From positions 2,577,393 through 2,641,392 of the forward strand of contig NZ_FOJA01000001.1 in NCBI RefSeq assembly GCF_900110535.1: a stretch of 64,000 nucleotides of DNA, written 5' to 3'. The DNA is from Halobacterium jilantaiense. GTDB taxonomy: Archaea; Halobacteriota; Halobacteria; Halobacteriales; Halobacteriaceae. The notes beneath the pieces were generated by a model. The model had not been told where the DNA came from, ran no database searches, and saw only the letters and a list, made by a program, of their open reading frames with translations. Numbering within the stretch: the first letter of the stretch is position 1; the number at the start of each line of letters is the position of its first letter. Positions 24,711 through 27,141 of this stretch are shown in pieces. The translations under genes and the position numbers were made by a program.

Positions 24711-26807
24711 GTGAAACCGCAGTTCGAGTCGCTAACTAAGCCACCGGGCGTCCGCGTCAGCGACCCGATCGAGAACGCGCAGTTCGAGGTCTACACGGAC
24801 AACCCCGTGAATCCAACTCCAGCAGACGGCGACCGGTTCGCGCTCCCGGTGGACAACGCAGTCCGGTTCACCGTCACGAAACTGGAGTTCCCGCAACTGT
24901 TGAACGTCGACGTCTGGACACAGGACGGTACGCTCGCCGACCAGTCCGTAAACCAGGAAGTGGATTCCTACCCTGCGCGGCAGTACTCCCTCGACATGGA
25001 CCTCGGGCCGATGAAACTGGCAGTTTCGACCGGTTCGGCGTTCACTGTGCGACGCGAAGGCAACACGACGTACATCTCTTTCCACAATCCAACGCCGATC
25101 CGGCTCGGAGCCCGATCACTCCACGAGTCGCCCGCCGCGACCATCACTGTCAGCGACGATCCGGTCGACGGGATGCGCGCAGTCTCCCTGTTTGGCTCTG
25201 CACTGAAGACCACTAGCCCCGAACGTTCATTTCCGACGCTACGGGGTCACCCGCCACTCGTCGAGTTGGGGGACAGCTTCGACGCACCCGATGCCCTCTC
25301 ACGTCCGGAGACGGGCATTGCGATCGAACTCCCCCGAAACTGGGGAGATGTCTACCGGACGAGCTCGCTAGCGTTCTACCTCGGCGCAGACGTCCGTCCG
25401 GGCGACGAGCGTACGCTCGTCGTCGATGGTGACCGTCACTCGCTGGACACTCCACAGGGGTTCGAGCGGGGGGTAAACGCGCTCCTCAAACACGTGTTCT
25501 TCCTCGACTGCGTCGTCCGAACAGAGGGACTCTACCCAGTAGACCTCCACGAGCGGTCTGTCGTCGAAGACGAGCTCGACTTCGACCTATCGAACATCTA
25601 CGATGCGTCGCTGTCGACGCGTCTCGCAGCGTACCTCGATGTCCCGACCGAGGTGACGAAGCCACACTGGCCACGCTGGAAGCAGACTGTCGACGTTGCA
25701 GCCGAACCCAAACGGGTCGAGTCACTGCCGTTCGTGGTGAACGACCTGGCGGAGATCCGAATTCCCAGAACCGACGAGGAGACACCCGATGTCCGGGAGG
25801 AGCCGGAGGCCGTTACGTCGTTCCTTCGCGCTCGCGAAGGCCTCGCTCGGAGTCCCTTGGGGGAAGAACACGAAGACGACAGCGCGTCCGGGTACTCGAA
25901 CGTGATCAAACCAGACGCGACGAACACGATCGAGCACACGTGGCTCGCGAACGGTTTCCCACTGGGAGCCAGCAAGGCGGCCGCCGAGTACTACAAGCGG
26001 CGGTTCGACCACTCGCCCTCCGAGCGGGAGTCCATCCGAATCGACATCGTCTGTAACGACCAGTCGATGACTGAGGAGGACATCGTCGAGGAGTTCTACG
26101 GTGCGCGGGACTTCTTCGAGTTCGACATCAGCGTCCACTACGACCTCGAACGAGCCGAACTCCGGGAGTTACTGACCGCTGATATCGACTTCCTTCACTA
26201 CATCGGGCACGTCGAGGAGGGTGGGTTTCAGTGCAGTGACGGGCTCTTCGACGCGCGGACGCTCGACGAGACAGAGGTCCGGGCATTCCTGTTGAACGCT
26301 TGCCGGTCGTACGTACAGGGGCGTGCACTCGTCGATGCGGGGAGCATCGGCGGAATAGTCACGCTTACGGACATCAGCAACGACCCGGCCGTGCGCATCG
26401 GCCGAGCGCTCGCACGACTCCTGAACAAGGGGTTCTCGTTGCTCGCTGGGCTGTCTGTCGCGAGAAACGTGACGCTGTTCGGGAACCAGTATATTACGGT
26501 CGGTGACGGAACGGTCCAGTTAGTCCAGTCGTCGGCCGGGACACCGACAATGTCCGAGGTTGAGCGGGTTGGGGACGAGTATCGCGTTACGGTTCACGGA
26601 TACCCGACCTCCCGAACTTCGATTGGGTCGCTCATCACAGTTCACGTAAAAAACCTCACAACCCAGTATCTAAACTCGGGTGAAATTGACGAATATCTCC
26701 TTGATGAGAGCGATCTACGGACGTTTTTCCAGCGTGGAGTCTTTCCAGTAATGTTCGAGGGGTCACTGACTTGGAGCGATTACTTACTGGAGAACAGGCT
26801 GAATTAA
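24711..26807 (+). CDS. CHAT-domain (caspase-like) protease
   Basis: A 698-residue protein whose C-terminal third is a CHAT (clan CD, caspase-like) peptidase. LHYIGHVEEGG supplies the catalytic His500 (His496 is four residues before) and FLLNACRSY the nucleophile Cys531, followed by GGIVTLTDI and a long helix-strand tail. The first about 400 residues are unrecognised, beta-rich in part, with no signal or membrane segment. GTG 24711 begins at MKPQFESLTKPPGVRVSDPI; the open frame upstream is arginine-rich shadow. Codon use is clearly less G/C-biased than in pccA or birA on either side. It ends head-to-head with, and overlaps, a 44-residue membrane peptide gene. It is presumably cytoplasmic, and the substrate is unknown. 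Confidence 0.8.
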   Translation: MKPQFESLTKPPGVRVSDPIENAQFEVYTDNPVNPTPADGDRFALPVDNAVRFTVTKLEFPQLLNVDVWTQDGTLADQSVNQEVDSYPARQYSLDMDLGPMKLAVSTGSAFTVRREGNTTYISFHNPTPIRLGARSLHESPAATITVSDDPVDGMRAVSLFGSALKTTSPERSFPTLRGHPPLVELGDSFDAPDALSRPETGIAIELPRNWGDVYRTSSLAFYLGADVRPGDERTLVVDGDRHSLDTPQGFERGVNALLKHVFFLDCVVRTEGLYPVDLHERSVVEDELDFDLSNIYDASLSTRLAAYLDVPTEVTKPHWPRWKQTVDVAAEPKRVESLPFVVNDLAEIRIPRTDEETPDVREEPEAVTSFLRAREGLARSPLGEEHEDDSASGYSNVIKPDATNTIEHTWLANGFPLGASKAAAEYYKRRFDHSPSERESIRIDIVCNDQSMTEEDIVEEFYGARDFFEFDISVHYDLERAELRELLTADIDFLHYIGHVEEGGFQCSDGLFDARTLDETEVRAFLLNACRSYVQGRALVDAGSIGGIVTLTDISNDPAVRIGRALARLLNKGFSLLAGLSVARNVTLFGNQYITVGDGTVQLVQSSAGTPTMSEVERVGDEYRVTVHGYPTSRTSIGSLITVHVKNLTTQYLNSGEIDEYLLDESDLRTFFQRGVFPVMFEGSLTWSDYLLENRLN

Positions 26808-26938
26808 GGTCCAGACGTCGATGCTGTCTCGGACGCCATAGCGGCGCCTGTCGTCGACAGGAACACCAGCATCGAGAACAGCACGCCGATCATTCGCGGG
26901 TGGTCCGACAGGAACTGACTGAACTTGTTGTCTGCCAT
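26804..26938 (-). CDS. 44-residue single-helix membrane peptide paired with CHAT protease
   Basis: The small gene encodes a charged N terminus (MADNKFSQFLSDHPR), one hydrophobic helix (about residues 16-34, MIGVLFSMLVFLSTTGAAM) and a short polar tail ending TSGP. The helix could be a membrane anchor, or a signal sequence with a possible AMA-S cleavage site. Start ATG 26938 lies 28 nt below a TATATT box, as for leaderless genes. Its TAA shares bases with the stop of the convergent CHAT gene. It resembles a family of tiny haloarchaeal proteins with an NHPR/DHPR motif and a GP ending (DUF7503 as I recall), often found near such proteases. Function unknown. Confidence 0.75.
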   Translation of the reverse strand: MADNKFSQFLSDHPRMIGVLFSMLVFLSTTGAAMASETASTSGP

Positions 26939-26962
26939 CGTCATCTGTTCCAAGCCACGCCC

Positions 26963-26969
26963 GTATATT
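26963..26969 (-). promoter_or_regulatory. TATA box of the membrane-peptide gene
   Basis: On the minus strand GAATATACGG is centred 28 nt before the peptide ATG. The whole 26961-27010 stretch is strikingly A/T-rich for this genome and includes an inverted repeat ATCTAT...ATAGAT around 26973-26995, a possible regulator site. Confidence 0.55.
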
Positions 26970-27141
26970 CAATCTATCTGAAAATAACATAGATAAATAA
27001 AGTGAAAAGATCGTGGATAGATGACTGGTGCTGGACGCGTCCCGCGCTGAAGCGGGCTCGAAGCGGCGTTTCGTGGCCGCACGGAGACTCGCTGGGATGT
27101 ACGCGCGAGGTTTAACAGCGACGGCCGGCAACGCGAGTGTG

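Follow-up and report, generated by a model that had tools for sequence, protein, structure and literature searches.

Do a CHAT-type protease gene and the gene of a small hydrophobic peptide, converging on the same four bases, form a working pair and, if they do, what might one product do to the other? The window, which is the whole stretch of 64,000 nucleotides of Halobacterium jilantaiense DNA analysed here, raises the question with the locus set out in Table 1. The original prediction took the two genes for a convergent module; this is confirmed and, if anything, was an understatement. Its description of the layout as 'head-to-head' has to be set aside, since the genes are tail-to-tail, i.e., convergent, as its own title had it. 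The bases that it assigned to both stop codons are indeed common to the two, and both codons of its His500/Cys531 dyad are in place.

The two genes and the family of the protease

Table 1. Features of the CHAT/peptide locus (positions in the window).
Feature	Position	Strand	Basis or remark
CHAT-type cysteine peptidase gene	24711..26807	+	GTG start, 698 aa; Pfam CHAT matches in relatives
CHAT N-terminal ~400 residues, with the conserved motif GSALKTTSPERSFPTLRGHPPL (residues 162-183)	24711..25900	+	Conservation in homologues
His500 codon, predicted catalytic (HYIGH)	26208..26210	+	Invariant in 156/156 homologues
Cys531 codon, predicted catalytic (LNACRS)	26301..26303	+	Invariant in 156/156 homologues
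TTAA common to both stop codons (4-base tail-to-tail overlap)	26804..26807		Sequence
Partner peptide, 44 aa, DUF7503 (PF24335)	26804..26938	-	Pfam E 1.1e-18, 67 bits
Peptide C-terminal Gly-Pro, conserved	26807..26812	-	Kept in 108/115 unique peptides
Peptide tail SETASTSGP (9 residues, 36-44)	26807..26833	-	Tail length and near-random sequence in relatives
Peptide hydrophobic core (residues 16-35)	26834..26893	-	Alignment of 115 unique peptides; signal-peptide or membrane-helix like
Predicted A/T-rich promoter island of the peptide gene	26945..27016	-	Sequence

The window peptide matches the PF24335 profile along its entire length (positions 1-42 of 42), at 67 bits for a cut-off of 27; a start at the in-frame ATG that lies 6 bases farther upstream would extend it to 46 residues. 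Pfam returns no match for the window CHAT protein itself, and its CHAT profile (PF12770) matches 18 of 58 members of the family, with 7e-5 as the best E value. The dyad motifs of the family are the expected ones (HYxGH and LNACxS), invariant in all 156 homologues of a first set and intact in 194 of the 198 CHATs of a wider one, so that loss of the dyad in most homologues is not the case. No partner ORF is in range of the four dyad-less CHATs (L196, L206, L208 and L211), about three independent cases given that L206 and L208 are paralogues lying next to each other. AlphaFold models of three CHAT sequences have a mean pLDDT of 35, too low for comparison with caspase-like folds, and the family profile finds no match among the sequences of solved structures. 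None of the 58 members matches a TPR family of Pfam, and no export signal is evident in the CHAT sequence. The N-terminal ~400 residues may be a sensor or peptide-binding part.

Some genomes hold many CHATs. G125, G174 (g52) and G043, the genomes of loci L186-L212, have 13-16 CHAT-family matches apiece, many with divergent partner peptides and some with the dyad lost. The genome from which the window comes also has, elsewhere, a tandem pair of CHAT paralogues that lack DUF7503 (L180:5483-9895); their convergent neighbour is the gene for a 154-residue acidic protein, whose stop codon overlaps the CHAT stop by 4 bases.

Linkage, position and neighbours

The survey covers 195 genomes drawn from the haloarchaeal class. 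DUF7503 is present in 164 of these and relatives of the window CHAT in 180; CHAT occurs alone in 16, neither is found in 15, and there is no genome with DUF7503 and without CHAT. All 92 DUF7503/CHAT pairs among the matches listed are convergent, as are 148 of the 150 DUF7503 ORFs in fetched loci (a number that counts some loci twice; there are 126 unique peptide ORFs). The linkage across genomes is thus near-universal, and chance is excluded as its origin. Conserved convergent pairs are probably unusual, because co-transcription does not explain them. Spacing ranges from -23 to +260 bp (with one gap of 992 bp) and is often -4 to +1; the 4-base overlap of stops recurs at about 30 other loci. 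Of the two exceptions, one peptide gene stands alone, 5 kb of flanking sequence to each side being free of any CHAT remnant (L075), and the other shares its strand with a CHAT that lies 1.4 kb off (L119). Counted from the side of the protease, 119 of 163 distinct CHATs have DUF7503 and 20 another candidate partner; 24 have none by the criteria used, some of these having a peptide slightly beyond the limits of the search. At one locus (L229, in G012) two tandem DUF7503 genes stand behind a single CHAT gene. Haloferax volcanii, searched as a control, encodes DUF7503. A phylum-wide draw turns up weaker CHAT relatives in one family of the same phylum outside the class; a clear partner peptide was looked for beside these and not found, and the pairing therefore looks like a haloarchaeal trait.

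The A/T-richness on which the idea of an acquired cassette leaned is real in the window, where GC is 0.58-0.63 in the CHAT gene, 0.52 around its 3' end and the peptide gene, and 0.69-0.74 in the flanks, but CHAT genes do not share it in general: means over 89 module loci are 0.643 (CHAT), 0.562 (peptide) and 0.654 (flank). An A/T-rich stretch at about -90 to -30 is common to 111 peptide genes. A/T-richness by itself does not point to a recent arrival, and the pccA-module-birA order is shared by all the other Halobacterium genomes checked, that of H. salinarum DSM 3754 among them. The module is therefore no younger than the genus, and a recent horizontal cassette is rejected on this ground. CHAT relatives are also found on haloarchaeal plasmids, suggesting that copies do move. 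pccA adjoins a CHAT module in a different family as well, on the opposite strand (L077:435-2255).

Defence genes were sought with PADLOC, which has no match for 58 CHATs and finds no recurrent defence family among 80 neighbour proteins; membership in a defence system or island was rejected on these grounds, as was an association with viruses, for which there is nothing in the phage records or viral contigs searched. What does recur is a third gene. DUF7504 (PF24336), like DUF7503 a Pfam family classed as a domain of unknown function, lies beside about half of the representative modules (about 27-30 of 62 loci, some of which have one gene in common), often immediately 5' of CHAT, in the same direction and touching its frame; L065, L094, L121, L142, L143 and L155 are among the loci that bear it. 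Pfam confirms its identity, and in one tested case it is fused to the haloarchaeal output domain HalOD1. The window's genome has about ten DUF7504 genes, none of them within the CHAT/peptide module.

The Gly-Pro end of the peptide and of its substitutes

The aligned DUF7503 peptides are 37-47 residues long, and the consensus of the 115 unique ones is [YF]LxxHP[RK]MxGxLFTxLLLLSQAGxxAAxN...GP. The C-terminal GP is written with all four Gly and all four Pro codons, and in moderately close pairs of GP-ending peptides (the comparison leaving aside the 7 of 115 that end otherwise) its codons differ by 437 synonymous and 0 replacement changes, although pairs of common ancestry do not represent independent events. 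Differences per codon are 0.24 synonymous and 0.12 replacement in the core, and 0.28 and 0.45 in the tail that precedes GP; positive selection on the tail was considered, but these values fit relaxed constraint instead. Where CHATs are 37% identical, the 23-residue core is 59% and the tail 11% identical; across families the tail before GP has about 11-14% identity. Its length is held at 8 or 9 residues in 95 of 99 peptides, with near-random sequence up to the last two. Charges are scarce in it (0.06 K/R and 0.14 D/E per nine residues), the K/R residues of the peptide lying almost wholly N-terminal to the core. The core ends as A/V-x-A/G in most members, which resembles a signal peptidase site, a rule that Ala-rich helices would meet too.

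The reading frame of the peptide is thus conserved, by alignment and by codon comparison alike, and the weight that was placed on the tail ending in TSGP is strongly supported: no part of the peptide is under tighter constraint than its C-terminal GP. Overlapping genes do not explain this in the window, since the CHAT reading frame does not include the GP codons. GP is missing from at least 13 DUF7503 tails (TID, TIG, TIR, SGI, TGI and others). Two CHAT residues were tried and rejected as readers of such tails: Tyr341 accompanies all seven exceptions of a first set and only one of six held-out non-GP loci; a residue other than Leu183 is found at all six held-out loci, yet also at many GP loci. 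No CHAT column could be linked to the sequence of the tail.

Where DUF7503 is missing, CHAT is often faced by a different convergent ORF that ends in GP. There are 14 of these without even a weak match to DUF7503, and five of six weak matches end in GP; the background is 0.6% of ORF ends. Divergent hydrophobic partners with this end are found at L128, L143, L146, L148 and L157, and GP-ended partners also at L192 and, in genomes with 13-14 CHAT matches, at L186, L195, L204 and L207; at L199, L200, L205 and L210 a few more residues follow GP. The partner at L147 appears to lack a helix and has the tail SGP. The most divergent design is that of one genus (g43; L129, L131 and L132), where the partner is devoid of any hydrophobic segment and consists, after a short start, of 13-residue units repeated in tandem 6-13 times (xTADGNSGGISGP or close variants); the protein ends in GP, and its gene overlaps the CHAT stop by 4 bases. 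By their sequence these repeats resemble multi-copy peptide precursors. Separately, helix-less convergent ORFs 3' of CHAT in two genera (L193 and L198) have the near-identical ends RAKRVS[ST]YGGP; several ORFs with nothing beyond GP to recommend them, these two and that at L187 (258 bp off) included, may be due to chance or be something else.

The peptide is, in sum, more than a membrane helix, and its GP tail is likely a recognised element, judging by how selection is distributed along the sequence: it is strictest at GP, which lies at a fixed distance from the core, and GP persists where soluble repeats take the place of the core. That CHAT would do the recognising is suggested by the linkage.

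What the pair may do

Our preferred account, held tentatively at somewhat short of an even chance, makes CHAT and its convergent peptide one unit, a peptide-ligand/protease switch in which the protease side would recognise the Gly-Pro tail. A promoter of its own would drive synthesis of the peptide as a membrane precursor resembling a signal peptide. The activity of CHAT would be set by the 8-9-residue xxxxxxxGP tail, or by the repeated GP units in its place, serving as ligand or substrate, much as in propeptide-receptor pairs or as a sensor of envelope state. CHAT would respond by cutting, whether the peptide or some other target, and DUF7504, where present, would tune the switch. There are weaknesses. 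The main one is topology, as positive charges predict N-in insertion, which would put the tail outside and require its re-import to meet a cytosolic CHAT; the core (59% identical at 37% for CHAT) is conserved beyond expectation for a mere signal peptide; and the tails without GP and the partnerless CHATs (24 of 163 by the criteria used) have to be accommodated.

We rank this switch above two other protein-level readings. A membrane-active effector, as originally proposed, would work like the caspase-like protease/gasdermin pairs, a trigger causing CHAT to clip the tail and the freed helix to damage the membrane. A conserved active-site dyad, a hydrophobic core that is better conserved than the protease, and a separate A/T-rich promoter region for the peptide are what one would want of such a device, and dyad-less CHATs have no peptide. 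It is weakened by the helix-less tandem GP-repeat partner of g43 (that of L147 apparently also lacks a hydrophobic segment), by the character of the tail that would be cut, which is uncharged, near-random and constrained only at its extreme end, and by the lack of a defence neighbourhood among the 80 neighbours, and we consider it unlikely. Slightly less likely still is a restraining role, in which the peptide, acting constitutively as a membrane tether or as a pseudo-substrate, would keep CHAT inactive until loss of the peptide or membrane stress releases it, much as with an antitoxin. The terminal GP at a fixed tail length would suit a tethered plug, the peptide has its own promoter region, and a linkage with no DUF7503-only genome agrees with restraint of this kind; but the g43 partner has no anchor, and the existence of CHAT-only loci with an intact dyad (16 genomes) implies that restraint of CHAT does not always depend on the peptide.

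Control at the level of RNA, with convergent transcripts overlapping at their 3' ends as mutual antisense, is very improbable as the main reason for the arrangement. Convergence at 148 of 150 ORFs with many overlapping stops is what it would produce, but spacing ranges to 100 bp and more, and selection for GP acts on protein. It can operate alongside any of the protein-level models.

CHAT peptidases with small partners have precedents in TPR-CHAT/Csx29 with Csx30, and a caspase-like protease accompanies bacterial gasdermin. The haloarchaeal pair is like these in having a small candidate partner gene adjoin that of a caspase-like protease; it is unlike them in that the partner is convergent rather than operonic, is 37-47 residues long, keeps a C-terminal GP and has no recurrent defence gene beside it. 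RRNPP pairs offer another comparison: they are defined as a propeptide of 10-100 residues directly adjacent (-60 to 400 bp) to a receptor of 250-500 residues with TPRs (PMC10075063). The likeness extends to a small propeptide with a hydrophobic N-terminal part and a short, variable C-terminal segment, adjacent to a large and presumably intracellular protein, to spacing of tens of bp and to intragenic propeptide duplications. At 37-47 residues and gaps of -23 to 260 bp, all but one DUF7503/CHAT pair falls within the RRNPP bounds for propeptide size and adjacency, and an A/V-x-A/G motif and charge asymmetry are the only marks in the sequences that may bear on Sec secretion and re-import of the mature peptide. 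The receptor is where the two part company: the window CHAT has 698 residues, and no TPR family is found in 58 members, so that the pair does not belong to RRNPP. A protease replaces the receptor, the organisms are archaea, the C-terminal GP is constant, and signalling by the pair would be a prediction.

The literature searched contains no paper naming DUF7503 or DUF7504 (a silence that does not amount to proof of novelty), nor does any paper in it mention a 'CHAT domain' together with haloarchaea or Haloferax volcanii; no earlier description of the CHAT linkage, the GP rule or the repeat variant was found there. Haloferax volcanii is reported to have a caspase-like activity, measured on LEVD, VEID and IETD substrates, for which there is no clear gene homologue (PMC3615174). 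CHATs are candidates for this orphan activity, any link being a guess.

If a caspase-like protease and a peptide dedicated to it do make up a module, its presence in about five out of every six haloarchaeal genomes would place it at the core of a model archaeal class, as a means of regulation or of deciding cell fate that has so far gone undescribed. A bolder extension, which we regard as unlikely, is a class-wide archaeal peptide-signalling or cell-fate system, in which a caspase-fold protease would serve inside the cell as receptor for a peptide that is exported or sits in the membrane, GP would be the constant code and the preceding residues the variable part, and the g43 partner a polyprotein-like source of many GP-ended units; if true, it would be unlike any described. 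The genes offer a handle on which of them, if any, underlies the caspase-like activity of H. volcanii (PMC3615174) and on whether archaea use gene-encoded peptide signals, and the two-residue GP tail is a direct mutational handle on the idea in laboratory strains.
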